Assembly (NCBI GenBank): GCA_023662725.1
Contig: JAMPIL010000001.1
Location: 949,618 to 1,013,617, forward strand
Length of the DNA stretch: 64,000 nucleotides
Direction of reading: 5' to 3'
Origin: Ruminococcus flavefaciens
GTDB taxonomy: Bacteria; Bacillota; Clostridia; Oscillospirales; Ruminococcaceae
Part shown: positions 740-26,270 of the stretch, one piece after another
How the letters are laid out: each line of letters opens with the position of its first letter
Numbering within the stretch: the first letter of the stretch is position 1
Notes under the pieces: model-generated
What the model was told of the DNA's origin: nothing
Databases searched by the model: none
What the model saw: the letters and a program-made list of their open reading frames with translations, nothing else
Translations under genes and position numbers: made by a program

Positions 740-2107
740 TTGAACGATAATACATTTTATATAAATGAATTAAATAAACTTTTTTCCGGCAGTTCAAAAA
801 AAGCTTATGTCAGAAGCTTTGGCTGTCAGCTTAACGTTTCCGACGGAGAAAAGATAAAGGGTTTGCTTAAACAAATCGGTTATACATTCACTGAGAACGA
901 AAACGAAGCCGATCTTATTATTCTTAATACCTGCGCCGTGCGTGAATCAGCGGAAGACAGGGTTTTTGGAATTATTGGAAGCATGAAAAAGCTCAAGGAA
1001 CTCAATCCATCTCTTATCATAGGAGTTTCCGGATGTATGAGCGCTCAGGAGCATATTGCGGAAAAAATAAAAAAATCGTATCCGCAGGTTAGTTTTGTCC
1101 TCGGAACGTCGGCGATAAATTCTCTTCCGAAGCTTCTGCTTGAAAGCGTTCGTGGAACGAGATTTTCAGCCGATATAGCTGAATATGATGACTTTTCAGA
1201 AACGTTTGAACAGGTTCGTGAAAGCAAGTTCAAGGCATCTGTTCCGATAATGTTCGGATGCAATAATTTCTGTACATATTGTATAGTCCCATATGTTCGT
1301 GGACGTGAGCGAAGCCGTTCGGCTGAGGATATTATCAGTGAAGTGACACAACTGGTGCATGACGGTTACAAGGAGATTATGCTTCTCGGACAAAATGTGA
1401 ATTCTTACGGAAATGATCTCGGTGGCGGAATTTCTTTCCCGAAACTTCTGCGTGAACTTGATAAGATCGACGGAGATTTCATAATCCGATTTATGTCATC
1501 TCATCCGAAAGACGCTTCGATAGAGCTTATTGATACGATTTTTGATTGCAGTAAGGTTGCAAAATCGCTTCATCTGCCTGTTCAGAGCGGAAGCGACAGT
1601 GTTCTTGAAAGAATGAACAGACGTTATACTGCGGAAAAATATCTCGGAATAGTTGACTATATCAGAACCCGTGACAGTGATTTTTCTCTAACAACCGATC
1701 TTATCGTCGGGTTCCCTGATGAGAGCGACGAGGAATTTGAGGCTACTCTCGACCTTATAAGGTATGTTAAGTACGACAATATCTACTCCTTTATTTACTC
1801 GAAGAGAAGCGGAACTAAGGCAGCTGAAATGCCCGACAAAATTTCCGATGAGATTAAGAGCGAACGTATGAGAAAACTGCTGGAGGTTCAGCGAGAGATA
1901 TCCTCAGAACGCTATCAGCGGTTTATCGGTAAAAAAATGCGTGTGCTGGTTGACGGTATCTCGAAAAAAAGAAAAGGATTCATTTCGGGAAAGAGCAATG
2001 AATACATAATTGTCGAATTTGAGGGGGATTCTTCGCTTATAGGACAATTTGTTGACGTTGAAATTATTGAATCCATGAATTGGGCGGTTATAGGTAAAAA
2101 GATATAA
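740..2107 (+). CDS. miaB: tRNA-2-methylthio-N6-dimethylallyladenosine synthase MiaB
   Basis: This radical-SAM methylthiotransferase adds the 2-methylthio group to i6A37 of tRNAs reading UNN codons, downstream of MiaA (encoded at 11178). The N-terminal UPF0004 domain carries the three cluster cysteines (SFGCQLNVSD, NTCAVRESAEDR, GVSGCMSAQE). The radical-SAM motif CNNFCTYCIVPY sits near residue 175, and a TRAM RNA-binding domain closes the protein. At 455 residues it is full length. The start is TTG at 740; a GCGGGG stretch about 9 bases upstream is the only candidate ribosome site. In Bacillus miaB is followed by ymcA, cotE and mutS; here two lipoprotein genes and a ~160-bp palindrome intervene before the YlbF/YmcA-type gene. 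Confidence 0.95.
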   Translation: MNDNTFYINELNKLFSGSSKKAYVRSFGCQLNVSDGEKIKGLLKQIGYTFTENENEADLIILNTCAVRESAEDRVFGIIGSMKKLKELNPSLIIGVSGCMSAQEHIAEKIKKSYPQVSFVLGTSAINSLPKLLLESVRGTRFSADIAEYDDFSETFEQVRESKFKASVPIMFGCNNFCTYCIVPYVRGRERSRSAEDIISEVTQLVHDGYKEIMLLGQNVNSYGNDLGGGISFPKLLRELDKIDGDFIIRFMSSHPKDASIELIDTIFDCSKVAKSLHLPVQSGSDSVLERMNRRYTAEKYLGIVDYIRTRDSDFSLTTDLIVGFPDESDEEFEATLDLIRYVKYDNIYSFIYSKRSGTKAAEMPDKISDEIKSERMRKLLEVQREISSERYQRFIGKKMRVLVDGISKKRKGFISGKSNEYIIVEFEGDSSLIGQFVDVEIIESMNWAVIGKKI

Positions 2108-2269
2108 GAACTTGTTCTCATAGGATATTTCACGCATCTTTTCGGCAAATTTTACTGATTGCTGCGTTGAAAAAGTTCACCATACAACAGTATGCTTTCA
2201 CTTTTTCGCCTTGCCCTCAGCAAAATTATGCTCGAAAATATCCGCACAAATCCTATGAGAGCAAGTTCT
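2107..2269. repeat. Long imperfect palindrome, element 1 of 3
   Basis: Beginning at the miaB stop codon, this ~163-bp stretch can fold almost end to end. The outer arm AGAACTTGTTCTCATAGGAT (2107-2126) pairs with its near-exact complement ending at 2269, and inner segments pair in blocks (AAATTTTACTGA with the complement of TAATTTTGCTGA, and GAAAAAG with CTTTTTC). The tip is a 4-bp stem ATAC-AACA-GTAT. Size and tip match the elements at 12161 and 26110. No ORF fits. It could be a MITE-like element, a structured RNA or a processing/termination hairpin between miaB and the lipoprotein gene. Confidence 0.75.
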
Positions 2270-2296
2270 AAAACACAGAACAAAAAAGGTGATGAC

Positions 2297-4138
2297 ATGA
2301 AAAAAATAACGGCTGTATTCCTCGCAGCATTATTGCTTGCAGGATGTTCTTCCGATGATAAAAGTGAGGAATCTTCTGATATTTCGCTGGAAATTCAATC
2401 TGAAACAACTTCTGCTACAGCAGAAAGATCAATCGAGGAACTCACAACGGAAGCTTTGACGAATGAGACTCCTCCGACTGTGATGAACATCCATATCCAA
2501 GAACTTGACCTGAGTCTGCCTGAAAACAGCGCCTACTCTCAATACGATGAAGAAAATTTGAGTAAAAGCGAATTTGAAGTGCCTGATTTTGGAACACTTA
2601 TCTGTGAAAACGGCAATATTACTCTTTTATCTGCAACGAATGAGATTAATGGATTGATCGACCTTCCTGTGGAAAGCGAAACGGTGTATGTAACAATCGG
2701 CAGTATTATCGATAACAGCCGTTTCAGCTATACGATTCATCAGGAGGACGCTAATTTAGGCTGCGGAGTTTACGATCTGAAAACAGGGGAGGATTTCCGC
2801 ATTGAGCCTGCCGAAGGACATATCGGGTATTATCCAAAGTGCGTCTCGGGTGACTATCTGATCATGTCAAGAGTGCGGATTGCGGACTTTTACGGCTATT
2901 CAAGGCTGAATCTGAATACTTATGAGCTTGAGGATATTTCTGATTCACTTTTTAAGGATCGGAGATATACAGTTTGCGACGCTTTTTCTCCGGACGGAAA
3001 ATTTTTTGCGAATATTTTTGTTGACAGGTCTGGCAGCTTGGAGAATGTCTACACCGTTTCTTTGATTTCAATTGAAACCGGAGAATTGCTTGAAGAATAC
3101 ACTTTTTCAAGCGAAAACGACTATGTTAACTTCTCCATGAAATTTGTTTCCGAAAATGAGTTGTACGTTTATGCCGATCAATATCATCCTGCCGAGAAGA
3201 AATTTCTTTATATAATCGACTTGGAAAAAGACAACTTTGACAATTTAAACAAGAGAAAACCTGTTTTCTTCTCCGATTCCGGTTATTATTACTATTCATA
3301 TGTTGGAGGAAGAGACAGCGCAAACTTTGTTCTGAGCTTCGATAACGGCGGCGGAAATCCTGTTCCTGTTGAAAACGGCGAGGACTGTATATGGTACTAT
3401 AACAGCGGAGATACTTTTTATGGAACAAAGTGGAGCCTTGATGGGATAAGTTTTTGTAAATGTGAAAATAACGCTGTATCTGATATTTTTGCATATCCCC
3501 AATCGTACATCCACAAGAGCTATTTTACCGGCGATTACATTTACTATGTTGTTTCGGACGATAAAACTGCCGAAATTTGCAGGGCGGACTATAATGGTGG
3601 AAATCCTGAGACCGTTTTAACTCTTGATGAAGCCGATTATGCTCTTGATTTTCTGGTTTATGACAATAAAATTTACTATGATGCAAAGAAACACCATAAA
3701 TTAGGCATATACGATATCGAAACAGGAGTAAATACCGATATTCCGCAGGGCGGAGTTGGGCGGATTTATAATGATTATATGTATTACATAAATAACGATC
3801 ATGATCTCTGGCGGATGAAGCTTTCTGATTATTCTGTTGAACCGATTTGTGAAAAAGTGTTTAATTATGATTTCATCGGGAATGATATAGTTTATTCACC
3901 TTACGGCGAGAATGAGAGAGACGGTGATCTTTTTATACTTGAAAATGGTGTAAGCAGGAAGATTTTCAGCGCTCAGGAATTCTTCGGCAATGATTATTAC
4001 TATATGATTGATAAGCTTCAATATAAAGACGAACATATCTTTGTGGAAATTTCATCCGGACCGTTTTACTCCTATATTGCGGAGCTTGATACGGATGGTA
4101 ATTTGGTAAAGACATATTATGAAAATAAAAGCACATAA
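2297..4138 (+). CDS. Secreted lipoprotein with C-terminal beta-propeller-like repeats
   Basis: A 613-residue protein. The start at 2297 is preferred over the in-frame codon at 2192 because AAAGGTGATG precedes it and the protein then opens with a lipoprotein signal (MKKITAVFLAALLLAGC, Cys about residue 17); the longer reading would run through the palindrome. A Ser/Thr/Glu-rich linker of about 60 residues follows, then repeated Tyr/Asp/Gly-rich beta strands reminiscent of DUF5050 or propeller proteins (NGGNPETVLTL, then YDNKIYY). It probably sits on the outer face of the membrane. I cannot name a substrate. The lipoprotein at 4162 follows closely and is probably co-transcribed. Confidence 0.8.
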   Translation: MKKITAVFLAALLLAGCSSDDKSEESSDISLEIQSETTSATAERSIEELTTEALTNETPPTVMNIHIQELDLSLPENSAYSQYDEENLSKSEFEVPDFGTLICENGNITLLSATNEINGLIDLPVESETVYVTIGSIIDNSRFSYTIHQEDANLGCGVYDLKTGEDFRIEPAEGHIGYYPKCVSGDYLIMSRVRIADFYGYSRLNLNTYELEDISDSLFKDRRYTVCDAFSPDGKFFANIFVDRSGSLENVYTVSLISIETGELLEEYTFSSENDYVNFSMKFVSENELYVYADQYHPAEKKFLYIIDLEKDNFDNLNKRKPVFFSDSGYYYYSYVGGRDSANFVLSFDNGGGNPVPVENGEDCIWYYNSGDTFYGTKWSLDGISFCKCENNAVSDIFAYPQSYIHKSYFTGDYIYYVVSDDKTAEICRADYNGGNPETVLTLDEADYALDFLVYDNKIYYDAKKHHKLGIYDIETGVNTDIPQGGVGRIYNDYMYYINNDHDLWRMKLSDYSVEPICEKVFNYDFIGNDIVYSPYGENERDGDLFILENGVSRKIFSAQEFFGNDYYYMIDKLQYKDEHIFVEISSGPFYSYIAELDTDGNLVKTYYENKST

Positions 4139-4161
4139 ATTGGCTGGATGGAGAGAACAAA

Positions 4162-5043
4162 ATGAAAAAGATATTATTAATAGCAGGAGTAGCTTTTATG
4201 CTCACAGGATGTTCTTCAGCGGAAAATGAAAAAAGCAAAACTGATATAATAAATGAAACAACATCGTCGCATGAGGAATTCATCGAATCTACTACAGCAA
4301 CCATTGAATCTGCTGAAACTTCAACAGAAATTCTTACGGAAATCGCAGTTCAGCAGCCTACAGAAGCGGTTTCGTCAGTAAATTATGGAAAACAAACCTA
4401 TCGTGAGGTTCTGGAGAATATATATTATAACCGTAAGCTGCCGGGATTTTCAGAGAAGGATATATTGCTGGATGATTATGATATCGAGGAAAATGATTTT
4501 TTGATTTACGATATTGACAACGATGGAAGCGACGAACTTATATTCAGGCTGAAAAATTATTATACGGCAGGTCAGACGGGAAGAATATACGATCATGACT
4601 CTGAAGGGAAACTTGTATTGCAGTTTCGTGCATATTCGTCTTTTACTTTTTATGAAAACGGCGCAATAAAGGTGAAAGACTCTCATAATCAGGGAAATTC
4701 CGGAAGTTTCTGGCCATATAGTATGTACAGATACGACCGTGAAACGGATTCGTATGAACTTTTCGGTAGTGTAGAAGCTCTCGATCTTGAAATAGTTGAA
4801 ACGATAAATGCGGAGCGTGAAGAAATCGGCAGAACGGATATGATAGAGTATCCGTATGAAGTCGATATGAGCAATTCCGGATTTGTTTATTATATTCGCT
4901 ATGGTCAGAGCAATGATGAGATAGAACCTGTCGACGTTACCGAATATAACGAAATGGACAGAGAATTCACAGGCGGTACAGAACCGCTTGAACTGGAGTT
5001 TATTAAGCTTACAGAGGAAAATATTCAAAATGTAACCCAATAA
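4162..5043 (+). CDS. Lipoprotein with a calcium-loop-like motif
   Basis: This 293-residue protein opens with MKKILLIAGVAFMLTGCSSA, a lipobox with the acylated Cys near residue 17, followed by a Thr/Glu/Ser-rich tether. The globular part contains DIDNDGSDELIFRLKN, an Asp-rich loop of the kind seen in FG-GAP/VCBS repeats and dockerins. The start follows the preceding lipoprotein's stop by about 20 bases and has a GGAGAG site. The two lipoproteins share lipobox and linker style and look like a pair of surface proteins. No enzymatic motif is visible. Confidence 0.8.
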   Translation: MKKILLIAGVAFMLTGCSSAENEKSKTDIINETTSSHEEFIESTTATIESAETSTEILTEIAVQQPTEAVSSVNYGKQTYREVLENIYYNRKLPGFSEKDILLDDYDIEENDFLIYDIDNDGSDELIFRLKNYYTAGQTGRIYDHDSEGKLVLQFRAYSSFTFYENGAIKVKDSHNQGNSGSFWPYSMYRYDRETDSYELFGSVEALDLEIVETINAEREEIGRTDMIEYPYEVDMSNSGFVYYIRYGQSNDEIEPVDVTEYNEMDREFTGGTEPLELEFIKLTEENIQNVTQ

Positions 5044-5102
5044 AAGAATGGACAATTTGCAATTGTTCGTCTATATAAATAATTAATTAAGGAGAATCAA
5101 TC

Positions 5103-5507
5103 ATGGATGTAATTGAATTAACAAGAGAACTGGGAAAGGCAATTCAACAGGATGACCGCTATATCGCCTATAATCTCGCAAAGCAGGTGAACGATAACGA
5201 CAGTGAGCTTCAAGCCGATATAGAGCGTTTTTCTCAGCTTCGTGACGACCTAAACAAGGCTATGTGCGAGGAAAATAAAGACGGTGATAAGCTTCAGAAA
5301 ATCGACGAAGAACTTAAAGCTGTTTATCAGAAGATAATGAGCAATAAAAATATGCTCGTTTTCAATGCTGCACAGCAGGCTCTTGAAGGACTTATCAATA
5401 ACGTTAATCAGATAATTTCACTCTGTGCAAACGGTGAAGATCCTGATACCTGTCAGCCTTCTACAGGATGTACGGGAAGCTGTTCTACCTGTGGCGGATG
5501 CGGCTGA
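5103..5507 (+). CDS. YlbF/YmcA (RicA/RicF) family protein with Cys-rich tail
   Basis: A 134-residue, mostly helical protein of the Com_YlbF family. Relatives YmcA, YlbF and YaaT form the Ric complex in Bacillus, which carries Fe-S clusters and adjusts RNase Y cleavage, competence and biofilm formation. Helical heptads occupy about residues 1-105. The last 20 residues hold six cysteines (CQPSTGCTGSCSTCGGCG), a plausible metal or Fe-S site. Its place just before mutS and in the miaB neighbourhood matches B. subtilis ymcA, the main support for orthology. AAGGAG precedes the ATG. Confidence 0.75.
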   Translation: MDVIELTRELGKAIQQDDRYIAYNLAKQVNDNDSELQADIERFSQLRDDLNKAMCEENKDGDKLQKIDEELKAVYQKIMSNKNMLVFNAAQQALEGLINNVNQIISLCANGEDPDTCQPSTGCTGSCSTCGGCG

Positions 5508-5548
5508 TAGGCAGCAATATGTAAAAAATTCACAAAAGGAGCAACCAA

Positions 5549-8167
5549 ATGGAAATAGACAGAAGCAAAATTTCTCCTATGATGCAGCAATATCTGGAGA
5601 TCAAAGATAAGTACAAAGACTGCGTTTTATTTTTCCGTCTCGGCGATTTTTATGAGATGTTTTTCGACGACGCAATAGTCGTTTCAAAGACTCTGGAGCT
5701 TACTTTAACGGGCAGAGACTGCGGTCTTGAAGAACGTGCGCCGATGTGCGGCGTTCCCTATCATGCAGCGGATACTTATATAAAAGAGCTTATTGACAGG
5801 GGATTCAAAGTTGCCGTCTGCGAGCAGCTTACCGATCCGTCCGAATCAAAAGGAATAGTAGTTCGTGACGTTATAAGAGTTGTCACCCCAGGAACTCTGA
5901 TCGAAAGCAGTATGCTTGATGAAGGAAAAAATAACTACGTTTGCAGTATTTTCTACGATCAGACTGAGCAGACCTGTGGAGTTGCTTCTGCCGATATTTC
6001 CACCGGCGAGGCCTTTCTCAGTTTTTTTGAGGGGAAAGACATTGAAGCCGGTGTTATTAACGAGCTTTCACGCTGTCAGCCGGCGGAGATAATATTCCCT
6101 GAAAATTTTCTTTCGCTGAAAAATGTCACTGATTTTGTGAAACTTCGTATGAAGTGTCCCGTAACTCTTCGTGACAGCGTTTGCTTTTCTCCGGAAAAAA
6201 GACGAAGCGTTGTACTTGGTCTTTTTAAAGCAAAATCGTTCTCCGAGCTTGGCATAAGCGAGAGCGGTGCGGACTGCTGTGCAGTATGCGGACTTTTCGA
6301 CTATATCGACGATACGCAGAAAATCTCAGTTTCACGTTTTACGTCAATAGAAATCCTTAACAGTGATGCCTATATGGGACTTGATCTGAATGCAAGACGA
6401 AATCTTGAACTTACCGAAACTCTTCGTTCAAAAGACAGGAAAGGTTCGCTGCTATGGGTTCTTGATTCAACGAAAACCTCTATGGGACGGCGTATGCTTA
6501 AAAACTGGATCGAACAGCCGCTGAAAAGTCCGGCGAGAATCATTGAACGTCTTGACGCAGTTGAAGCTTTAACCAGAAAAAGCGTGATTCTTTCAGATAT
6601 ACAAATTCTTTTAGAGCAGGTCTACGATCTTGAGCGTCTGATGACAAAAGTTATGTATAAAAAGGCGAATCCCCGTGATCTGAAAGCGCTATCTGCTACA
6701 GCGATACAGCTTCCTCCTCTTAAAAAGGAGCTTGAAAAATTCAGCGATAATAAGCTGCTTTCCAAGTATAACAACGATATTTCAACTCTTGAAGAGATGG
6801 TTCGGCTTGTGGAAAATGCTGTTGTGGATGATCCTCCGATTGCAGTCAAGGACGGCGGAGTTATCAAAGACGGCTTCAATGAAGAACTTGATTCCTTGCG
6901 CCACATAATGAACCACGGAAAGGAAATGATCGAGGATATTGAACGCCGCGAACGTGAAGCCACCGGCATTAAAACGCTTAAAATCGGATTTAACCGGGTG
7001 TTCGGCTATTACATTGAAGTAACACGTTCTTATCAGGAACTCGTTCCGGAAGGTTATATCCGCAAGCAGACTCTTGCAAATGCTGAACGTTACATAACCG
7101 AGGAACTGAAAAATGCCGAAAACGCTATTCTTGGAGCTAAAGATAAGGCTCTTTCACTTGAAGCCGATATTTTTGCCGAAGTCAGAGATTTCCTTGCGAC
7201 CAAGCTTGAAATGGTTCAGAAGACGGCTTCTTCTGTTGCTTCTGTCGATGTTCTCTGCGCTTTTGCCGATACCGCACTGAAAAATCAGTATGTTAAGCCC
7301 GATATTTCCCTTGACGGAGCTGTCGATATCAAGGGCGGACGTCATCCTGTGGTCGAACTCATGCTTGACGGAGAAATGTTTGTGCCGAACGATGTTTATA
7401 TCGACAATAAATCAAACAGAATGTCGGTTATTACAGGACCGAATATGTCCGGTAAATCTACATATATGCGACAGACTGCGCTTATCGTTCTCATGGCTCA
7501 GATAGGAAGTTTCGTTCCGGCGGATTCTGCGAAAATTTCCGTAGTCGATAAAATTTTCACTCGTGTCGGAGCTTCCGACGATCTTACTGCCGGACAAAGT
7601 ACATTCATGGTCGAGATGAGCGAGGTTGCGGATATTCTGAAAAATGCCACTCACGACAGCCTCGTCATCCTCGACGAGGTAGGCAGAGGCACTTCTACAT
7701 TTGACGGAGTGAGCATTGCAAAGGCTGTTGCCGAGCATATATGCGGTTCAAAAAAGCTTGGCTGCAAGACTCTTTTTGCAACGCATTATCATGAGCTTAT
7801 CGGGCTTGAAAATGAACTTGAGGGCGTAAAAAATTACAGTATCGCTGTGAATAAGCATGGCGGAACCATTCGTTTTCTGCGAAAAATCGTCCGTGGAGGA
7901 GTTGACGAGAGTTACGGTGTTGACGTTGCGAAACTTGCCGGACTTCCTTCTAAGGTTATAAGCAGAGCGAGGGAGATCCTCGGGGAAATGGAAAATAGTC
8001 ATAAGAATAGTCTGCTCTTAGCAGAACAGGCTGAAACAGCGCAGATAAGCTTTGGAGCGATAAATCGTGAAAGCGCACTTGAAATGCTCGAAAAAACCAA
8101 TATAGATGAGCTTACCGACGCAGAATGCCGTGACTTGCTGAAAGATATGTCAGACTTGATACGATGA
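5549..8167 (+). CDS. mutS: DNA mismatch repair protein MutS
   Basis: MutS recognises base mismatches and small loops and recruits MutL in an ATP-dependent way. At 872 residues it is full length. The mismatch-binding N-terminus is intact (MMQQYLEIKDKYKDCVLFF, then GDFYEMFFDDA with the Phe-x-Glu contact). The ATPase core has Walker A GPNMSGKSTYM near residue 630, Walker B VILDEVGRGTSTFDG and the signature ATHYHEL. The start has AAAAGGAG eight bases upstream. It lies about 40 bases after the YlbF-type gene and is followed by two small genes and mutL, so a repair operon is likely. Confidence 0.97.
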   Translation: MEIDRSKISPMMQQYLEIKDKYKDCVLFFRLGDFYEMFFDDAIVVSKTLELTLTGRDCGLEERAPMCGVPYHAADTYIKELIDRGFKVAVCEQLTDPSESKGIVVRDVIRVVTPGTLIESSMLDEGKNNYVCSIFYDQTEQTCGVASADISTGEAFLSFFEGKDIEAGVINELSRCQPAEIIFPENFLSLKNVTDFVKLRMKCPVTLRDSVCFSPEKRRSVVLGLFKAKSFSELGISESGADCCAVCGLFDYIDDTQKISVSRFTSIEILNSDAYMGLDLNARRNLELTETLRSKDRKGSLLWVLDSTKTSMGRRMLKNWIEQPLKSPARIIERLDAVEALTRKSVILSDIQILLEQVYDLERLMTKVMYKKANPRDLKALSATAIQLPPLKKELEKFSDNKLLSKYNNDISTLEEMVRLVENAVVDDPPIAVKDGGVIKDGFNEELDSLRHIMNHGKEMIEDIERREREATGIKTLKIGFNRVFGYYIEVTRSYQELVPEGYIRKQTLANAERYITEELKNAENAILGAKDKALSLEADIFAEVRDFLATKLEMVQKTASSVASVDVLCAFADTALKNQYVKPDISLDGAVDIKGGRHPVVELMLDGEMFVPNDVYIDNKSNRMSVITGPNMSGKSTYMRQTALIVLMAQIGSFVPADSAKISVVDKIFTRVGASDDLTAGQSTFMVEMSEVADILKNATHDSLVILDEVGRGTSTFDGVSIAKAVAEHICGSKKLGCKTLFATHYHELIGLENELEGVKNYSIAVNKHGGTIRFLRKIVRGGVDESYGVDVAKLAGLPSKVISRAREILGEMENSHKNSLLLAEQAETAQISFGAINRESALEMLEKTNIDELTDAECRDLLKDMSDLIR

Positions 8168-8183
8168 GATATGGGGTGAAACC

Positions 8184-8609
8184 ATGGTAAAATTTAATTC
8201 GGAAAATATGACCGAAGCTCTCGAACGTTTTGGCAAACAATATAAATATCCGATTTATGCAAGTATAAGAAACATGACAGGTTTTTTCAGCCGTCCGAGT
8301 GATGTAATATCAGGCTATGCGGCGGTCACTGACGATAATTTTCTTATTCTTGTGCAGATACCCTTGTTTGGAACGATAAATGACGCTGAGTATTTTCAGC
8401 TTCCTGTGCTGGGGATAAAGCGCCTTAAAATCAAAAAGTCTCCTTTGATAAATATATACACTGTGGATATCAGAGGAATTGCCGACGGAAAAAAATACAG
8501 ATTCAAGATTACTATCGCAAGCAAAGTGGGCGGAAAAGGCTTTCCTGAGCAGACTTCAAATCACGCCGGATTTATTGAAAAGCTTAAAAAATGGTCCGAC
8601 GAAATATAG
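8184..8609 (+). CDS. Hypothetical protein between mutS and mutL
   Basis: A 141-residue soluble protein starting 17 bases after mutS with a GGGGTGAAACC ribosome site. It has no signal peptide or membrane segment. The pattern of alternating hydrophobic residues (YAAVTDDNFLILVQIPLFG, then KKYRFKITIAS) suggests a small beta-rich fold of the PH-like/YdjM type, but no catalytic motif is visible and I do not recognise the family. Its position makes it part of the mutS-mutL transcription unit; whether it acts in repair cannot be told. Confidence 0.65.
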   Translation: MVKFNSENMTEALERFGKQYKYPIYASIRNMTGFFSRPSDVISGYAAVTDDNFLILVQIPLFGTINDAEYFQLPVLGIKRLKIKKSPLINIYTVDIRGIADGKKYRFKITIASKVGGKGFPEQTSNHAGFIEKLKKWSDEI

Positions 8610-8631
8610 TATAAATTTAAGAGGAATAATA

Positions 8632-8952
8632 ATGAAATATTTTTATAAAATCAACGAGCTTCACGGAACAGACTGTCATGAATTCTTTAAAGGCAAGTGG
8701 AATGGTACATTCTGGAGCTATGATTCGATTTATATTTATGATGAAGACTTCAGCAGTTCAGGTCTTAAAAGAGCAATTTCCCGTGTTGTTACTGATTATT
8801 CGCCTTATGCTGATTCCGAGATAAATTCAGAAATGTGGGAGAAAATATGCTCCGAGGCGAAATTATCAGCTCTCGAAGCCGTTAAAGAAGCGTCATTCTG
8901 GGTTAAAGAAGCTCTGGATGAGCATGGGATTTTTACTATACTGGGAATCTGA
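8632..8952 (+). CDS. Hypothetical protein between mutS and mutL
   Basis: A 106-residue acidic protein. The ATG at 8632 follows AAGAGGAATAATA, a fair ribosome site, about 20 bases after the previous stop; an upstream start at 8479 in the same frame would overlap the previous gene by more than 120 bases and is rejected. The sequence is rich in aromatics (FFKGKWNGTFWSYDSIYIYD) with an amphipathic C-terminal half (AKLSALEAVKEASFWVKEAL). The family is not recognised. Co-directional spacing places it in the mutS-mutL unit. Confidence 0.65.
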   Translation: MKYFYKINELHGTDCHEFFKGKWNGTFWSYDSIYIYDEDFSSSGLKRAISRVVTDYSPYADSEINSEMWEKICSEAKLSALEAVKEASFWVKEALDEHGIFTILGI

Positions 8953-9000
8953 GCGTTATATGCGTAAATAAGAATCCTCAGCATAAGAAAGGAGAAACAT

Positions 9001-10977: not shown

Positions 10978-10996
10978 ATGTAAAAAGGAGAATTTT

Positions 10997-12160: not shown

Positions 12161-12317
12161 GGCGGTCTCTAAAAACCTGTTTGGTCAAGCAAAAATCAGA
12201 TAAGTGAGTCGGTTGTAAAAAGCCTTGCGAAGTTGTGCTGATGCACTGCTTGAGGTTTTTTTGCAGCAAATGATGCGAATTGCTGATTTTTGTCAGAAGA
12301 GGCTTTTAGAGACTGCC
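12161..12317. repeat. Long imperfect palindrome, element 2 of 3
   Basis: A 157-bp foldable element fills the miaA-hfq gap. The ends GGCGGTCTCTAAAAACCT and AGGCTTTTAGAGACTGCC are complementary with two exceptions. Inside, CAAAAATCAG (12190-12199) pairs with CTGATTTTTG, and AAAAAGCC with GGTTTTTTT. The tip is GTGC-TGAT-GCAC, read on the other strand as GTGC-ATCA-GCAC. Size, nesting and tip agree with the elements at 2107 and 26110, although the arms differ in sequence. There is no coding potential. Confidence 0.75.
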
Positions 12318-12359
12318 GATTAGAGATATCAGATATATAAATTAAATAAAGGAGAACGA

Positions 12360-12605
12360 ATGTGTATGAACAAAACAATTAATCTTCAGGATGTATTTCT
12401 TAATCAGTGCAGAAAAGACAAGATAATGGTAACCATTATTCTTACAAATGGATTTCAGTTTAAAGGCATGATAAGAGGATTTGACAGCTATGTTGCAATT
12501 TTTGACTGCGACGGCAAACAGCAGCTTGTGTTTAAGCACGCTATTTCTACAATTATTCCTGCAAGACAGGTTTCTATTCTTGATGCCTCTGAAAAAAGCG
12601 AATAA
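12360..12605 (+). CDS. hfq: RNA chaperone Hfq
   Basis: An 81-residue Sm-like protein that forms hexamers and helps small RNAs pair with mRNAs. The Sm1 region ([20 protein letters not shown], then [19 protein letters not shown]) and the Sm2 motif ([14 protein letters not shown], the family's YKHAIS) are intact; the C-terminal tail is short as in other Firmicutes. AAAGGAG lies five bases before the ATG at 12360; an in-frame ATG at 12366 is also possible. The long palindrome forms its leader. Confidence 0.96.
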
Positions 12606-16471: not shown

Positions 16472-16549
16472 TTTTATTTTTAATAAAATCGTATAAATTT
16501 GCTTGAAAGGAGGGTTCTTCCACAAATAAGTGCGAAGAATCAAGGAAAA

Positions 16550-19321: not shown

Positions 19322-19334
19322 TTATAACAATATT

Positions 19335-19361
19335 GCCTGCTGTCAAGATATGGCGGCAGGC
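19335..19361 (+). terminator. Putative terminator after ileS
   Basis: GCCTGCTGTC and GGCGGCAGGC form a ten-pair stem (two G-U pairs) with a seven-base loop, followed by GTATTATTTA. The tail is only moderately T-rich, so it may be leaky into lspA. Confidence 0.4.
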
Positions 19362-19391
19362 GTATTATTTACTTGAAAGGACAAATTTTTA

Positions 19392-19913
19392 GTGGCTATT
19401 CTGCTTACGGCAATGGTAATTGCCCTTATCGGAATCGATCAGATAATCAAATACTGGGCGATTCATTCACTTCAGCCGAAGGGGAGTATTGACTTCATCC
19501 ACTTTGGAAAGATCGAAATTTTTGATTTGACTTATCTTGAAAACGACGGTGCGATTTTTGGAAGTATGTCCGGTCAGCGATGGTTTCTGATCGGTTTCAC
19601 GGCAATAGTTATCGCTGTCGGGATTGTGGCTATGTTCAAGTTCCTGAAACGCTCTAAACTGCTTAGCATAGCCGTTTCGCTCTTTGTTGCCGGAGGACTT
19701 GGAAACATTATCGACCGTATTCGGTTTGGCTATGTAGTTGATATGTTTGAGTTCAAGCTGTTCAAATTTGCGATCTTTAATTTTGCAGATATCTGTGTGA
19801 CGATCGCTTTTATTCTGCTTTTGATTTATGGAATTTTTATTGATCCTAAGATCGAGAAAAGACTCAAACAGGAGTCGGCAGCGATGAAAAAAGAGGCTGA
19901 TAAAAATGAGTGA
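19392..19913 (+). CDS. lspA: Lipoprotein signal peptidase
   Basis: LspA is a membrane aspartyl protease that removes signal peptides from diacylglyceryl-lipoproteins, such as those at 2297, 4162 and 42846. The 173-residue protein has four predicted membrane helices and both catalytic motifs: GGLGNIIDRIRFGYVVDMFE and FAIFNFADICVTI, plus YLENDGAIFGS. The GTG start at 19392 follows GAAAGGAC. The gene overlaps the next by eight bases. Confidence 0.95.
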   Translation: MAILLTAMVIALIGIDQIIKYWAIHSLQPKGSIDFIHFGKIEIFDLTYLENDGAIFGSMSGQRWFLIGFTAIVIAVGIVAMFKFLKRSKLLSIAVSLFVAGGLGNIIDRIRFGYVVDMFEFKLFKFAIFNFADICVTIAFILLLIYGIFIDPKIEKRLKQESAAMKKEADKNE

Positions 19914-20820
19914 GAAGCTTATTCTGACTGCTTCTGACGAAGAGTGCGGAAAAAGAATTGACAAATTTATTTCGGACAATATTGCTCAGCTTTCTCGGAG
20001 CGCAGTTCAAGGACTGATTTTAAATGGTTTAGTTCTTGTAGACGGAAAAAATTCGGGAAAAAATTATAAGATTCATGGCGCTGAACAAATTTCAGTTGAA
20101 ATTCCTGAACCCCAGCCAATGGATGCTCTGCCGGAGGATATTCCGCTTGATATTGTTTATGAGGACAGTGAACTTCTTGTTGTAAATAAACCGAAAGGAA
20201 TGGTCGTTCATCCTGCGCACGGAAATTATAACGGAACCCTGGTCAACGCTCTGCTTCATCACTGCGGAGATAGTCTTTCGGGGATAAATGGAGTTATCCG
20301 TCCAGGAATTGTCCACAGAATAGACAAAAATACCAGCGGATTGCTTATCGTTGCAAAAACGGATTCGGCTCATGTTAAATTGGCGGAGCAGATCAAGGAG
20401 CATAGTTTTACCCGTGAATACGAAGCGGTAGCCGCAGGTTACTTCAAGGAGTTTGAGGGAACTATCGACGCTCCGATAGGACGTCATAAGACCGACAGGA
20501 AGAAAATGTGCGTAATACAGGAAAATTCGAGGAATGCGGTCACTCATTACAGTGTTTTGAGGCAATATGGCGGATACGCTCACGTTCGTCTGAAACTTGA
20601 AACCGGCAGAACTCATCAGATAAGAGTTCATCTTGCCTATATCGGTCATCCGGTTTTGGGGGACGATGTTTATGGAAAGTCATATAAGGGAATTGACGGA
20701 CAGTGCCTTCATGCCCGAAAAATAGGGTTTATTCATCCGTCCAGCGGTGAATATATGGAATTTGTGAGCGAGCTTCCGGAGTATTTTTCTTCGATTTTGA
20801 ATAAGCTTGAAAAAATGTAG
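19906..20820 (+). CDS. RluD-type 23S rRNA pseudouridine synthase
   Basis: A 304-residue RluA-family enzyme. An N-terminal S4 domain (RIDKFISDNIAQLSRSAVQ, then LVLVDGK) precedes the catalytic domain with the Asp loop HRIDKNTSGLLIVAKTD and the conserved KPKGMVVHPAHGN, GRTHQIRVHLAYIGHPVLGD and LHARKIGFIHP. The lspA-rluD order is standard in Firmicutes. Whether it is RluD itself or a paralogue of the same family cannot be fixed by eye. Its start overlaps lspA, so the two are translated together. Confidence 0.92.
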   Translation: MSEKLILTASDEECGKRIDKFISDNIAQLSRSAVQGLILNGLVLVDGKNSGKNYKIHGAEQISVEIPEPQPMDALPEDIPLDIVYEDSELLVVNKPKGMVVHPAHGNYNGTLVNALLHHCGDSLSGINGVIRPGIVHRIDKNTSGLLIVAKTDSAHVKLAEQIKEHSFTREYEAVAAGYFKEFEGTIDAPIGRHKTDRKKMCVIQENSRNAVTHYSVLRQYGGYAHVRLKLETGRTHQIRVHLAYIGHPVLGDDVYGKSYKGIDGQCLHARKIGFIHPSSGEYMEFVSELPEYFSSILNKLEKM

Positions 20821-20823
20821 GCG

Positions 20824-21648
20824 GTGAGAAATTTGTTTGAAGATATATCTAAAATAGTGCTGCTTAGCGACATGGACGGAACGCTGCTTAATTCCAAAAA
20901 GCTTATTAATGAAGTTGACTTAGCTGCAATTCAGCGGTTTATTGACCTCGGAGGTCATTTCACAGTCGCTACAGGACGCACTTTACAGGCATTTGAGCAG
21001 TATCGTGCCGGCTTGGAACTGAATATGCCTGTGATAATGTATAACGGTGCAGCGATTTACGATTACGGTACCGGAAAGACGCTGTATACTCATCCTCTTC
21101 CTGACGAATGCCGAAATATAGCCAAAGAGCTCCTTGAAGCCATGCCAGATGCCGGGGGAGAGGTTTTAAAGCTGGATGGCACTTACGTTTTCCGCAACAA
21201 TGATTATCAGAAGCTTCACACAAAACTTTGCGGAATAACTCCGTTTTATTCCACTCTTGATGAAGTTCCGGAGGGCGGATGGCTTAAAGTTCTGTTCGCA
21301 ATGGCTCCGGATGATATGGAATACATAGAGATACTCGTCCGGCAGAAAAATTACGAAACTGTCAGCTTTGTGAAGTCGTCAGAGATGTTTTATGAGATGC
21401 TTCCTGTGGGAGTAAGCAAGGGTTCAGCTCTTTCAAATTACCGCAGGCTTAACGGAATGACGGATTTTAAATTCGTTGCTATCGGCGATTTCGATAACGA
21501 TATTGAAATGATTCGTGAAGCCGACTTGGGAGTGTGTCCTGCAAATGCCGAAGAATCGGTGAAAAAAGCGTCCGCTTTCGTTCTTGAGAGAACTAATAAC
21601 GAGGGCGCAGTTGCCGAGCTGATAAATCATATCATAAATAATTTGTAA
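20824..21648 (+). CDS. Cof-type HAD-superfamily phosphatase
   Basis: A 274-residue HAD hydrolase of the Cof (IIB) type, acting on sugar or nucleotide phosphates. Motif I is LLSDMDGTLLNS with the nucleophile Asp; motif II is TVATGRTLQ; motif III includes the Lys of SKGSAL; motif IV is AIGDFDNDIEMI. The cap domain lies at about residues 85-190. GTG 20824 is used; TTG 20833, with AGGCGGTGAG upstream, is an equally good start. The substrate cannot be inferred. Confidence 0.88.
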   Translation: MRNLFEDISKIVLLSDMDGTLLNSKKLINEVDLAAIQRFIDLGGHFTVATGRTLQAFEQYRAGLELNMPVIMYNGAAIYDYGTGKTLYTHPLPDECRNIAKELLEAMPDAGGEVLKLDGTYVFRNNDYQKLHTKLCGITPFYSTLDEVPEGGWLKVLFAMAPDDMEYIEILVRQKNYETVSFVKSSEMFYEMLPVGVSKGSALSNYRRLNGMTDFKFVAIGDFDNDIEMIREADLGVCPANAEESVKKASAFVLERTNNEGAVAELINHIINNL

Positions 21649-21666
21649 CTTTTTACGGAGATAAAT

Positions 21667-22128
21667 ATGAAGATTCAAAAGATTACAAAGGAATCGTTTG
21701 CCGTGATTGGAAAAGAGGGTTCTTCATCAGAAGGAAACGGATTTATTCAAAGATTATGGACTGAGGCGAATGCTCATGTCGGAGAAATTCAGCATTTGGC
21801 AAAAAAAGATGAAAATGGAAATATAGCCGGAATATGGGGAGCAATGTCAGATTTTTCACGCTCTTTCAAGCCGTGGGAAAACTTTAATGAAGGACTTTAT
21901 CTTGCCGGTATAGAGTGCAATAACGATTCAGAAGCGCCTGATGGATGGACAAAATGGATTATTCCGGGGTATGAGTATATCTGTGCTGAATGTGAAGAAG
22001 ACGACACCTTTTCGCAGGTTATTCAATATATGAGAGATAATGATATTGAATTAGCGGGCGCAGTTCATGATTTTACTTGTACACAGACAGGAAAAAATTA
22101 TATGTTTTTTCCGATAAAAAGACTTTGA
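21667..22128 (+). CDS. GyrI-like small-molecule-binding protein
   Basis: A 153-residue stand-alone effector-binding domain resembling GyrI/SbmC and the C-terminal domain of AraC-family regulators. Supporting features are the opening strand KIQKITKESFAVIGKEG, the helix FIQRLWTEANAHVGEI, the GIWGAMSDF strand and the closing FTCTQTGKNYMFFPIKR. There is no DNA-binding part. Such proteins bind hydrophobic or cationic compounds. It lies alone between the HAD gene and the transketolase pair, with CGGAG before the ATG. Confidence 0.7.
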   Translation: MKIQKITKESFAVIGKEGSSSEGNGFIQRLWTEANAHVGEIQHLAKKDENGNIAGIWGAMSDFSRSFKPWENFNEGLYLAGIECNNDSEAPDGWTKWIIPGYEYICAECEEDDTFSQVIQYMRDNDIELAGAVHDFTCTQTGKNYMFFPIKRL

Positions 22129-22181
22129 TCAGAATAAATAAAACCAGTTGCTATGCGGCTGAATTATATATGGAGGTTATT

Positions 22182-23021
22182 ATGGACGAATCTATCAAAA
22201 AGACTTTGCAGAAAACTGCCTGCAAAGTGAGAATGGGCGTTATCGAGGGTACTTATAACGCTAAATCGGGACATCCCGGCGGCTCGCTTTCAATAAGCGA
22301 TACCCTCACATATCTTTATTTTAATAAAATGAATGTTGACAGCAATGATCCGGAAAATCCTGAAAGAGACCGTCTTGTGCTTTCTAAGGGACATACTGCT
22401 CCGGCGCTTTACTCCGTTCTTGCTCAGAAAGGCTACTTTCCGGAGGAGGAGCTTAAATCACTTCGTCATATCGGCGCACTATTACAGGGACATCCGTGTA
22501 TTCATACTCCGGGAGTAGATATGTCCAGCGGCTCGCTCGGACAGGGAATTTCCGCTGCCTGTGGAATGGCTCTTGCGGGAAAGCTTGACAACAAATCATA
22601 TAAGGTCTATGCTATTCTGGGCGACGGTGAGATTGAGGAAGGACAGGTATGGGAAGCAGCAATGTTTGCGGCTCATTACGGTCTTGGAAATCTTGTTGCT
22701 ATTGTTGACAATAATGGACTGCAAATCGACGGTCCTATTACTGAAGTTTGTTCTCCCGAGCCTATTACAGATAAATTTGCAGCTTTCGGCTGGCACGTTA
22801 TAACAATGGACGGTCATGATTTTGATGATATCGACAGAGCCTTCACCGAAGCTGAAAAGATAACAGATAAGCCGGTTGCTATTATTCAGAAGAGTGTTAA
22901 GGGCAAGGGCGTTTCATTCATGGAAAATCAGGTAGGCTGGCATGGAACTGCTCCTAATAAAGAACAGTACGAACAGGCTATGAAAGAGCTTAATGCGCAG
23001 TTAAAGGAATTGGAGGACTAA
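22182..23021 (+). CDS. Transketolase, N-terminal (ThDP-binding) subunit
   Basis: The first half of a split transketolase, 279 residues. It binds thiamine diphosphate and Mg: the GDGEIEEGQVWEAAMFA motif and VDNNGLQIDGP are intact, as are GHPGGSLSISDTL and SKGHTAPALYSVL near the start. The ATG at 22182 follows TGGAGG; an earlier in-frame start at 22077 overlaps the previous gene and is rejected. Together with the next gene it interconverts pentose-phosphate sugars. A two-gene transketolase is common in Clostridia. Confidence 0.94.
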   Translation: MDESIKKTLQKTACKVRMGVIEGTYNAKSGHPGGSLSISDTLTYLYFNKMNVDSNDPENPERDRLVLSKGHTAPALYSVLAQKGYFPEEELKSLRHIGALLQGHPCIHTPGVDMSSGSLGQGISAACGMALAGKLDNKSYKVYAILGDGEIEEGQVWEAAMFAAHYGLGNLVAIVDNNGLQIDGPITEVCSPEPITDKFAAFGWHVITMDGHDFDDIDRAFTEAEKITDKPVAIIQKSVKGKGVSFMENQVGWHGTAPNKEQYEQAMKELNAQLKELED

Positions 23022-23025
23022 GACA

Positions 23026-23973
23026 ATGGCAGAAGTTATGAAAAAAGCTACCAGAGAAAGCTACGGCGAAACGCTGAAAGAGCTTGCCGAGGAGTATAAA
23101 GATCTTGTTGTTCTCGATGCCGATCTGGCGGCTGCAACCAAGACCGGAATCTTTAAAAAAGCCTATCCTGAGCGCTTTTTCGACTGTGGAATTGCAGAGG
23201 CTAACATGATGGGGGTTGCAGCAGGACTTGCAGCCTGCGGAAAAATTCCGTTTGCAAGTACATTTGCTATGTTCGCTGCCGGAAGAGCTTACGAAATAGT
23301 AAGAAATTCTATCGGCTATCCTCATCTTAATGTTAAAATAGGTGCAACTCATGCGGGAATTTCAGTCGGTGAGGATGGTGCAACTCACCAGTGCAACGAG
23401 GATATTGCTTTAATGAGAACTATTCCCGGAATGACTATAATCAATCCCTGCGACGATGTTGAAGCTCGTGCCGCAATAAGAGCGGCTCTTGATTTTAATG
23501 GACCTGTATATATGCGTTTCGGACGTCTGGCAGTTCCGGTTGTAAATGATAGAGAAACTTACAAATTCGAACTTGGCAAGGGCGTTGTTATGAAGGACGG
23601 AAGCGATGTTACTATCGTTGCAACCGGACTTATGGTAAACGAAGCTCTTGAAGCTGCCGTTGTACTTGAAAATGACGGTATATCGGCAAGAGTTGTTAAT
23701 ATCCATACAATCAAGCCGCTTGATAAGGAACTTATCTGCAAGTGTGCAAAGGAAACGGGAGTTATCGTGACGGCTGAGGAACACAGTGTTATCGGCGGAC
23801 TTGGTTCTGCTGTTGCAGAAGCTGTAACGGAGTGCTGCCCTGTCCCTGTTGTAAAGATCGGCGTTAATGATGAGTTCGGACACTCCGGTCCGGCTGTAGA
23901 TCTTCTGAAGGAATTCGGACTTTCTGCTGAAAACATCGTTGCAAAGGTTAAGGAAGCTGTAAAACTTAAATAA
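23026..23973 (+). CDS. Transketolase, C-terminal subunit
   Basis: The second half of the split transketolase, 315 residues, starting four bases after the first. It contains the pyrimidine-binding domain (VVLDADLAAATKTGIFKK, CGIAEANMMGVAAGLA with the catalytic Glu, FASTFAMFAAGRAYE, HAGISVGEDGATHQ) and the C-terminal domain (VIVTAEEHSVIGGLGSAVAE). It completes the active site with the partner at 22182. A bidirectional terminator follows at 23987. Confidence 0.94.
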   Translation: MAEVMKKATRESYGETLKELAEEYKDLVVLDADLAAATKTGIFKKAYPERFFDCGIAEANMMGVAAGLAACGKIPFASTFAMFAAGRAYEIVRNSIGYPHLNVKIGATHAGISVGEDGATHQCNEDIALMRTIPGMTIINPCDDVEARAAIRAALDFNGPVYMRFGRLAVPVVNDRETYKFELGKGVVMKDGSDVTIVATGLMVNEALEAAVVLENDGISARVVNIHTIKPLDKELICKCAKETGVIVTAEEHSVIGGLGSAVAEAVTECCPVPVVKIGVNDEFGHSGPAVDLLKEFGLSAENIVAKVKEAVKLK

Positions 23974-23986
23974 TTTAAGATAAAAG

Positions 23987-24006
23987 GAGCTTACAAATGT
24001 AAGCTC
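23987..24006. terminator. Bidirectional terminator between transketolase and recQ
   Basis: GAGCTTACA-AA-TGTAAGCTC is a perfect nine-pair stem. TATTTTT follows on the plus strand, and CTTTTAT follows on the minus strand after the recQ stop at 24012. Confidence 0.7.
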
Positions 24007-24011
24007 TATTT

Positions 24012-26081
24012 TTATGCCAGAATACCAATTTTTCGTAATCTGGAACGTATCGCACCGTTGGTGCGTTTGTGAATTCGTGCGATTTCAGTAATACATTTAC
24101 CGGAATTAAATTCCTCGGCAAGCTGACTTTCTTCGCTTTCGGTCCACGGTTTGGGTTTTGGAAGAGCAGTTGTGCCGACAGCGTGTTCACGGAAACTTGC
24201 AAGCTGACTTTCAAGATAGCTCACCTCGCCATCGGGAGCTTTCTCCGCATCGGGATTGTTTTTTATGTATTCGGAGATCACTTCGCAGAAAGCGTCGCTG
24301 TACTTATCGGCCTTGCTTCTTCCGACTCCTGAAACATTGAGAAACTGCTCTCTTGAAGTCGGGAGCTTTCTGCACATATCACGAAGCGCAGCGTCACCAA
24401 AAACTATATAAGCCGGAACGTTTTCCTCATTCGCAAGTTTACTGCGAAGCGAACGAAGTTCTGCAAAAAGAGGATCATTGGCATAGAATTTGTCATCAGC
24501 TTTACGCTTGTCCTTTTGAGATTTTTCAATGGGGAGCTTCATGCTTACAGGAATTTTTTCTTTAAGGATTTTTACTGATTTAGAAGAAAGACAAAGCTGA
24601 GGGAAGTCGGAATCAGTGAGCATAAGGTAGCCGTTCATGACGAGATAGTCAATTTCAGATCGTATCTTTGAAGCCGAAACATCTGCCATTATGCCGTATG
24701 TTGAAAGTTTATCAAAACCGAGTGAAAGTAGTTTTTCATTACGGCTTCCACGAAGAATATCAACGATCATGCTCTTGCCGTAATCCCAGCCTTTTTGGTG
24801 AACACGATAGACGCAGGAAATGATTTTCTGTGAATCTATGGTTATATCCACAGTTTCAAATCCGTTTACACAGCTTGAACAATTTCCACAGTAGTTTGGT
24901 GAATTTTCCCCGAAATATCGCAAAATGTATTCTCTCAGGCATCCTGTTGTGGTACAGTAGTACGTCATGGCTTTAAGACGTTCCTTATCCTTTTCGAGAA
25001 TTAGTTCACGCTCCTTTTGTGAGAGTTCCGAGTTTTCCTCATAGCTTTTTTCAATCATGAATGTGTTGGTACGAACATCGGTGCCACTATAGAGAAGCGT
25101 ACATTCAGCCGGTTCACCGTCACGTCCGGCACGTCCGGCTTCCTGATAATAGCTCTCAATATTCTTTGGCATATTATAATGAATTACAAATGAAACGTCC
25201 GATTTGTCGATACCCATACCGAAAGCGTTGGTTGCTACCATGATCCTCTTGCGGTCATAGATAAAATCATCCTGATTTTGCTGTCTTTCAGAATCGGAAA
25301 GACCTGCATGATAGCGGGTTGCAGAGAAGCCTTCCTGATTGAGACGCTCACAGACTTCCTCAACATTTTTCCTTGAAAGACAGTAAACGATACCGCATTT
25401 TTCTCCGTATCCGGAAATAAGACTGCGGAGCGTATCGTATTTCCTCGTAGGCTGAATAACGGCGAAATATAGGTTTTTTCTGTTGAATCCGGTGGTTATA
25501 GAAAATGGATCTTCAAGCCGGAGAATTTTTATAATGTCATCACGGACATCTGTGGTCGCTGTAGCTGTGAAAGCGCTTACAATCGGACGTGAGGGAAGTT
25601 TACTTATGAAATCGATGATACGGAGGTAACTCGGTCGGAAATCCTGTCCCCACTGAGAAACGCAGTGAGCTTCGTCTACAGTTATCATTGAGATTTTGAT
25701 GTGAGCGGCGAGACGCAGAAAATCTTCGGAATCCAGTCTTTCCGGAGCAGCATAGATGATTTTATACGCTCCGTTATAAGCGTTTCGGAAAACAGCAGAA
25801 TATTCCTCCATAGATAGAGAACTGTTAATGCAGGCTGCATTGAATCCGGCAGAAATAAGAGCGCTTACCTGATCTTTCATGAGCGAGATAAGAGGTGAAA
25901 CTACAATAGTCATGCCGTCAAGGAGCATTGCCGGAACTTGATAGCAGATAGACTTTCCTGCGCCTGTCGGCATTATACCGAGAGTATCACGTCCGGACAA
26001 AATGCTGTCTATAATTTCTTCTTGACCGTTACGGAAGCTGTCATGACCGAAATATTCTTTTAAAATATCGTATTTATTCAT
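24012..26081 (-). CDS. recQ: ATP-dependent DNA helicase RecQ
   Basis: A 3'-5' superfamily 2 helicase of recombinational repair, 689 residues. Visible are the Q-motif region (FGHDSFRNGQEEII), Walker A MPTGAGKSICYQ, DEAH box TVDEAHCVSQWGQDFRPSY, and motif VI YYQEAGRAGRDGEPAEC. A zinc module (CLREYILRYFGE, then CGNCSSC) and winged helix follow. An HRDC domain spans about residues 535-615 (FGDAALRDMCRKLPTSREQ). The last ~50 residues add a helix-turn-helix-like segment (WTESEESQLAEEFNSGKCIT, then RTNGAIRSRLRKIG), a C-terminal extension often seen in clostridial RecQ. The leader contains palindrome element 3. Confidence 0.95.
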   Translation of the reverse strand: MNKYDILKEYFGHDSFRNGQEEIIDSILSGRDTLGIMPTGAGKSICYQVPAMLLDGMTIVVSPLISLMKDQVSALISAGFNAACINSSLSMEEYSAVFRNAYNGAYKIIYAAPERLDSEDFLRLAAHIKISMITVDEAHCVSQWGQDFRPSYLRIIDFISKLPSRPIVSAFTATATTDVRDDIIKILRLEDPFSITTGFNRKNLYFAVIQPTRKYDTLRSLISGYGEKCGIVYCLSRKNVEEVCERLNQEGFSATRYHAGLSDSERQQNQDDFIYDRKRIMVATNAFGMGIDKSDVSFVIHYNMPKNIESYYQEAGRAGRDGEPAECTLLYSGTDVRTNTFMIEKSYEENSELSQKERELILEKDKERLKAMTYYCTTTGCLREYILRYFGENSPNYCGNCSSCVNGFETVDITIDSQKIISCVYRVHQKGWDYGKSMIVDILRGSRNEKLLSLGFDKLSTYGIMADVSASKIRSEIDYLVMNGYLMLTDSDFPQLCLSSKSVKILKEKIPVSMKLPIEKSQKDKRKADDKFYANDPLFAELRSLRSKLANEENVPAYIVFGDAALRDMCRKLPTSREQFLNVSGVGRSKADKYSDAFCEVISEYIKNNPDAEKAPDGEVSYLESQLASFREHAVGTTALPKPKPWTESEESQLAEEFNSGKCITEIARIHKRTNGAIRSRLRKIGILA

Positions 26082-26109
26082 AAGTCACCAATTTCATTAA
26101 GAATTTATT

Positions 26110-26270
26110 AGACCTCCTCGGCAGCTGAAAAGTACTGTATGGCGCAGGATTTTTTGCGTTTTGCAAAGTCAGGTTTTCGCAGGGATACTGTATGTATTGC
26201 AAGGAAAGCTGACGAAGAAAAACACAAAAAAGACAAGTCAGACAGTGCGTTTCAGTTTCCGAGGAGGGCT
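26110..26270. repeat. Long imperfect palindrome, element 3 of 3 (recQ leader)
   Basis: A 161-bp element. The ends AGACCTCCTCGGCAGCTGAA and TTCAGTTTCCGAGGAGGGCT are complementary with three exceptions, and ACTGT/ACAGT and T/A-rich blocks pair inside. The tip read on the minus strand is ATAC-ATACA-GTAT, the same 4-bp stem as element 1. It lies immediately downstream of the predicted recQ promoter, so it would form nearly all of the recQ 5' leader. There is no coding potential. Confidence 0.75.

Follow-up and report, generated by a model that had tools for sequence, protein, structure and literature searches.

The described elements closest to those reported here are the bacterial miniature inverted-repeat transposable elements (MITEs), in particular those of the IS5 family: both are short, non-coding, multi-copy and mostly intergenic, make target duplications and have ends matching those of autonomous insertion sequences (ISs). 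We analysed three such palindromes, E1, E2 and E3, in a stretch of 64,000 nucleotides of Ruminococcus flavefaciens (the window; the genome from which it comes is called the own genome). The family to which they belong shows all the MITE features tested except one, an interior derived by deletion from an IS with the same ends. Here, in contrast with IS5-family MITEs, the interior is common to elements with different ends and was not found in four ISs with such ends, and its fold shows a strand-specific bias.

Other known repeats are more distant. ERIC, RUP, SPRITE and Correia repeats are also small palindromic intergenic repeats. REP/RAYT elements are likewise imperfect hairpins of which one strand seems to be the relevant one, but the elements described here have inverted ends and DDE-type target duplications, and half of the genomes with tips that were searched gave no match to a Y1 transposase. 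The BOX elements of the pneumococcus are also modular small mobile repeats, but it is their middle module that varies, whereas the elements described here have a conserved middle and variable ends. Rfam was the sole link tested to ERIC, RUP, SPRITE (the three are named in PMC10969869) and Correia repeats, and it gave no match above the gathering threshold at the elements: only a tRNA reached this threshold in the window, and the three matches at 12 element loci (E 0.46-0.92) were all below it, one of them (ATPC, L082 1462-1512) overlapping the element. Among the titles and abstract openings listed in a literature search, with subscription journals and preprints outside its coverage, there was no published account of such elements.

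We find that E1, E2 and E3 are members of one large Clostridia family of small mobile hairpins, whose common centre is approximately CCTTG-NN-ATAC-GNNA-GTAT-N-CCTGCG. Below, L numbers denote loci and G numbers genomes; R1 is a model made from 16 E1-type tips only and R2 a model made from 73 tips, with no E2 rows but with the window E1 and E3 among its training rows. The features of the window are as follows.

2108 to 2268, plus strand (strand of the CCTTG-type tip): E1, a MITE-like palindrome with end GAACTTGYTCTCATAGGA and copies in the own genome; its complement is the better-folding strand.
2105 to 2107, plus strand: left target duplication of E1, TAA, from the letters of the sequence and the TNA flanks of the copies; it doubles as the stop codon of miaB (MiaB recognised via NCBIfam).
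2269 to 2271, plus strand: right target duplication of E1, TAA, from the letters of the sequence.
2166 to 2208, plus strand: conserved core and tip of E1, from an R1 match (E1 being itself an R1 training row) and the covariation in the family.
2181 to 2194, plus strand: hairpin CATAC-AACA-GTATG inside the E1 core.
12161 to 12317, minus strand: E2, a degenerate MITE-like palindrome, kin to the GGGCACCTCTAAAAACC end type, with relatives at L021-L023 and in G018, G010 and G020.
12235 to 12246, minus strand: E2 tip GTGC-ATCA-GCAC, which aligns with the GTGC-GTCA-GCAC and GTGC-GAAA-GCAC of relatives recognised by R2.
26110 to 26270, minus strand: E3, a MITE-like palindrome whose better-folding strand is the plus strand of the window.
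26185 to 26197, minus strand: E3 tip ATAC-ATACA-GTAT, common to L027, L029 and L032 (which have other arms), with a close variant in L033.

The three palindromes lie where a previous, sequence-only reading of the window had placed them, and they fold end to end. Against 200 dinucleotide shuffles, E1, E2 and E3 had fold z scores of -7.6, -4.0 and -8.5, respectively, on the strands tested first (with 20-nt flanks) and of -10.0, -8.1 and -6.6 on the opposite strands, and no shuffle was as good in any of the six tests. The exact bounds of E1, read from the sequence, are those bracketed by the two TAA. The target-site duplications that the reading had proposed to look for are thus present at E1, but none is recognisable at E2 or E3. 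The letters of the tips were also correct, the third as written being those of the complement strand, which was left unsaid. The outer arms had been described as free-running and without common sequence: there is indeed no cross-match among the three (BLAST, E<=0.01), but elements of the family have in common a large part of their inner ~100 bp, and it is the terminal 20-30 bp that differ most.

Three small hairpins alone are no proof of kinship, which was accepted because relatives link them. R1 finds tips in five of the nine E3-type loci (E 6e-8 to 5e-5) and misses the others (one at E 0.97) as well as the window E3 itself. R2 finds tips in 22 of the 26 E2-type loci (E<=0.001), of which 20 are near-identical copies of G020, leaving about three independent cases; it misses L059, the own-genome loci L021-L023 (L022 appearing only at E 1.7) and the window E2. 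The R2 scores of the window E1 and E3 prove nothing, since both served to train the model, and E2 is included in the family because it aligns with its better-kept relatives, the window copy itself being unmatched by R2. Across the class, R2 matches occur in 51 of 391 sampled Clostridia genomes and 32 of 223 genera (E<=1e-4, strict filters, own genome included), and a pattern scan of named genomes gave at least 120 stretches. Among the matches listed, 76 of 80 are labelled Ruminococcus, Gemmiger, Ruminococcaceae, Oscillospiraceae, Clostridia or Clostridiales. The tips L095 and L100 lie on contigs labelled Bacteroides and Alphaproteobacteria metagenome-assembled genome (MAG), where mis-binning or transfer is possible.

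The stem of the tip varies with both sides kept (ATAC/GTAT, AAGC/GCTT, GTGC/GCAC, GGAATCC/GGATTCC, GGAAGGC/GCCTTCC). In the tip alignment A1, from which five of the 21 E1 rows were left out as truncated, misaligned or divergent (L012, L014, L016, L017, L018), pairing is kept in 93.3% of cells and covariation scores 0.417, compared with 0.185 for shuffles; further pair types are not above the shuffles (304 of 500 as high). In the tip alignment A3 (73 sequences), 88.2% of cells pair and the score is 0.439, compared with 0.124 +/- 0.011 for shuffles and a maximum of 0.141 for slid controls. Kinship alone can beat shuffles without any structure, and more weight is therefore due to the slid controls and to the fact that the type of stem changes. 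The covariation that had been read from three tips is thus found across the family. As covariation is present, no Rfam family reaches its gathering score at the elements and the elements join one family, the proposal that the three belong together also stands. Among 118 tips defined by a pattern with fixed stem and free loop, 76 have GNNA loops (65 of them GNCA, i.e., UGNC on the complement) and 22 have five-base ANNNA loops. By eye, the second internal loop (CTGCGT vs CTTG) resembles the first with its strands exchanged.

The elements are about 160 bp long (class medians 158-171). E1 has 26 matches in the own genome at E<=0.001, which correspond to 22 places, some being matched on both strands or in two pieces, and R1 finds 21 places there at E<=1. 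E1 is one of about 20 full or partial copies in all, and those aligned end in GARCNTGTTC with TNA flanks. E2 has three relatives in the own genome (L021-L023), one in G018 and one in G010, and 21 matches in another member of the genus, G020, where the ends of this type are GGGCACCTCTAAAAACC. The own genome has no second copy of the E3 arm type; the E3 centre recurs in G018, G017 and G002, mostly inside palindromes with different ends or arms, and one locus with such a centre (L026) has no end-to-end fold within the stretch shown. Element ends are abundant in some genomes, with 137 end matches in G454 and 122 in G020. E1, the only element compared with plasmids and phages, has no match in the former and one weak partial match in the latter. 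Three own-genome E1-type copies (L011, L016, L019) carry an insertion of about 60 bp immediately 3' of the tip hairpin.

The flanks of the copies bear the marks of transposition. The 3-bp TNA duplications of the E1-type (class-a) elements are identical in seven of the 11 copies read on both sides (12 of the 21 aligned copies were taken), and 4-bp duplications of E2-type elements in G020 are identical, by eye, in at least 12 of 21. Elements of the IS1031 group make TNA duplications. Among 100 genomes of the genus, PF13586 has 28 matches in 19 genomes, and we found IS5-family insertion sequences with E1-type ends at L216, L218 and L226 (742-807 bp; L218, of 742 bp, has one transposase piece only) and an IS with GAGCCTG ends at L213 (882 bp). 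Their transposase pieces match NF033580, PF13340, PF01609 and PF13586, with one of seven pieces over the NF033580 cut-off and the other six being half proteins. R2 finds no tip in any of these four ISs, and the elements are thus not simple internal deletions of them. No IS partner was found for the other end types, E2 and E3 types included. The copies, the target duplications, the matching IS partners and the covariation support the suggestion, already made from the sequence, of a non-autonomous mobile element.

Other arrangements of such ends were seen. A GAGCCTG-type palindrome at L203 has been entered by an IS (863-2447) whose ends are CCACTATCCACAACTTAA. In L036, L200, L109, L112 and L163, two ends lie as far apart as those of an IS; these were considered as ISs and rejected, because the intervening frames are by eye unlike transposases, and were read as palindromes flanking host genes. 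Two of these loci have a composite-like layout, a host gene lying between two inverted ends of one type, with, by eye, a TspO-like frame in L036 (624-1653) and an RnpA-like frame in L200 (311-1546).

The ends of the elements change around one core. End classes could be assigned to 122 of 212 elements and fall into seven motif groups, some of them related. When 22-nt ends are compared (chance likeness 5.9 +/- 2.1 of 22), groups C (GGCAAYACCGCACAA) and E (GGAANCRCTGAAYAAAT and GTAAACGCTGATTAAAT) are alike (mean 13.0 of 22), and a slight likeness is seen for C-D (9.5), E-K (9.4), A-K (8.5) and D-E (8.4), the other pairs having means of 4.1-7.8. Group A, to which the ends of E1 type and of GAGCCTG type belong, shows no likeness to C (4.2) or E (5.8). 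Yet 2120 cross-group core alignments (E<=1e-4) connect 19 of the 21 pairs of groups, some only across 27-29 nt of tip. The cores of L095 and L096 are 79% identical over 107 nt while 5 and 5 of 22 end positions are alike; the corresponding values are 84% over 83 nt with 5 and 7 for L090 and L337, and 82% over 88 nt with 7 and 7 for L087 and L112. Two end types surround the same core motif within G263, and likewise within G190. Given similar cores under ends of chance-level likeness, and ISs that lack the centre, we class the elements as MITE-like, with a core that is conserved and ends that can be replaced. Separately, inverted end motifs only 46-51 bp apart (G454 C70:12405-12450; G020 C57:22317-22367 and C114:21111-21161) are possibly mini-palindromes made of two ends alone.

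The fold of the elements is biased towards one strand. On the CCTTG strand, helix mismatches are A.C in 309 cases and G.U in 110 (105 elements), and an A.C on this strand is a G.U wobble on its complement. The bias is also found in strict context (40 A.C vs 5 G.U in 64 elements after removal of duplicates), in unique contexts along the arms (74 vs 15; 28 vs 10 at more than 50 nt from the tip) and in the A3 tip alignment (34 vs 15). The complement folds better in 59 of 64 clusters with RNA parameters and in 63 with DNA parameters, with a mean folding energy of -63.5 kcal/mol against -46.6 for the CCTTG strand. This is the case for all three window elements (-71.7 kcal/mol on the minus strand vs -59.6 on the plus for E1; -75.6 on the plus vs -54.7 on the minus for E3).

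Two explanations of this bias were rejected. Across seven families, 19 A.C and 1 G.U are found among the mismatches that the consensus has fixed, whereas those private to one or few copies are 18 to 22 (Fisher p 1.6e-4); an earlier version with a different pairing rule gave 43 vs 47 for private mismatches. The symmetry of the private mismatches indicates that mutation is about symmetric, for which reason a mutational strand bias was rejected, and that the bias arises between, not within, insertions. The bias is also equal by gene context (152 to 41 in ++ and 88 to 26 in --; Fisher p 0.78), so local transcription is not its cause and a transcription-linked bias was rejected. In the simplest reading, there appears to be selection for the folding of the CCTTG-complement strand during propagation. 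The earlier suggestion of selection for shape is supported by this strand-specific wobble bias.

With a shared and covarying core, signs of mobility, similar cores under unrelated ends, IS partners for the E1-type and GAGCCTG-type ends, and a strand bias confined to fixed mismatches, the explanation that we favour, with somewhat better than even confidence, is that these sequences form one Clostridia superfamily of small two-module non-autonomous mobile palindromes whose interior would be kept by strand-specific folding. The terminal repeats fit the DDE (IS5-type) transposases of their surroundings, which presumably recognise them. The internal loops of the inner hairpin (about 100 nt) would be conserved, and its apex would be a small loop that often reads UGNC on the folding strand. 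The ends would be replaced, in a manner that we infer, while the interior is kept, because one defined strand may have to fold, as RNA or single-stranded DNA (ssDNA), during the multiplication of the element itself. The folded strand would probably be bound by a common factor independent of the transposase. We lean slightly towards RNA rather than ssDNA.

Several observations weigh against this interpretation. The own genome has no PF01609 or PF13586 match, and its copies may thus be relics. No end class could be given to 90 of the 212 elements, some of which are cut by contig ends. The only pair from a single MAG, L099/L121, was dropped as proof of end exchange (core 92% over 116 nt; ends 14 and 11 of 22 alike), since the ends are themselves related and may reflect fast divergence rather than exchange; L129/L197 likewise fall in one end group. 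The A1 tip alignment alone has no strand bias (5 A.C, 8 G.U), and the comparison of fixed and private mismatches, which was designed once the bias had been seen, includes 20 fixed and 40 private A.C or G.U changes in seven families, some sharing ancestry. Finally, six elements in five genomes (L243, L244, L246, L259, L260, L286) have double tips of opposite polarity about 120 nt apart, the weaker tip having an R2 E-value of 0.008 to 7e-8. All have a T-shaped fold but L246, which is cut by a contig end, and each hairpin keeps its own polarity (15 A.C to 4 G.U over 12 hairpins). The favoured strands are thus opposite, and one transcript would contain only one favoured hairpin, which weakens a simple RNA model.

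The T-shaped double tips would be dimers of the core unit in a more speculative and rather unlikely scenario, that of a parasite hopping between transposases. The folded core would be the true unit of inheritance, re-equipped with the ends of different ISs. At one stage it would be single-stranded in a strand-specific way, either as ssDNA or as RNA that is copied back, and bound by a common host or helper factor.

The rival that fares best, although we find it rather unlikely, is that these are MITEs of the ordinary sort, in which template-switch (quasi-palindrome) correction between the arms maintains the palindromes, the core being a hitchhiking relic and the covariation a functionless by-product of mutation. 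Template switching at quasipalindromes yields paired changes without selection, the hallmarks of MITEs are present, and resident copies mutate symmetrically, as if unconstrained. However, this account predicts neither a core conserved under several unrelated ends and in 32 of the 223 sampled genera, nor the one-sided wobble bias of the fixed mismatches.

Less probable still is a cis-acting RNA that works for the host (a terminator, mRNA stabiliser or insulator), is carried by MITEs and is selected where it has inserted. Most sites are intergenic, 15 of the 170 usable ones lying inside an open reading frame of at least 110 aa, and there is a weak orientation bias, the upstream gene being on the CCTTG strand in 93 cases against 61 (pooled p 0.012) and in 65 tandem pairs against 37 (p 0.007). 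This test used 170 of 225 sites at the 110 aa setting (an earlier run had 169 sites, of which 109 were used); at 110 aa, only set A of the three sets reached p 0.05 on its own for the upstream gene, and no set did for tandem pairs. Yet the favoured fold is more often antisense to the neighbouring genes, and the wobble bias does not differ between ++ and -- contexts and is not seen in private mutations. Given the symmetry of the private changes, a role in the spread of the element itself is more likely than one that serves the host where the element lies.

We consider it very improbable that the elements are REP/RAYT-like hairpins moved on ssDNA by a Y1 (HUH) transposase. Their imperfect hairpins are strand-specific and Y1_Tnp has matches in nine of the 18 tip-bearing genomes searched, the own genome included (two places). 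The other nine, which are draft assemblies and include the copy-rich G190, G263, G144, G176 and G020, have no match, so Y1_Tnp was judged unlikely to be a required partner, and DDE transposases are indicated by the target duplications and the IS5-type ends. The least credible option of all, a chance likeness at the tip among three MITE families that are unrelated, would fit the 4-bp hairpin that is all the window copies have in common and the lack of R1 and R2 matches to the window E2, but cross-family model matches and intermediates speak against it: it is refuted for E1 and E3 by their relatives, and for E2 the case against it is made by better-kept relatives.

In the window, E1 lies between miaB and a gene without any family match, the TAA stop codon of miaB being the target duplication that is present again on the far side. 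E2 is in the gap between miaA and hfq, directly upstream of hfq (12161-12360), and E3 is flanked by recQ and a gene with a partial, below-cut-off match to pectate lyase. A weaker inverted repeat, with AT-rich arms of 25 nt separated by 75 nt, lies at 60792-60916.

The usual view of MITEs is that each derives from a single IS by deletion and is a dead end, whereas in these Clostridia a single structured core seems to have lasted throughout a bacterial class while its ends differ. If this core is needed for spreading, then bacterial DNA elements would have an unrecognised single-stranded step, and the comparison of fixed and private mismatches by strand is a simple way to seek such steps in other families of repeats.

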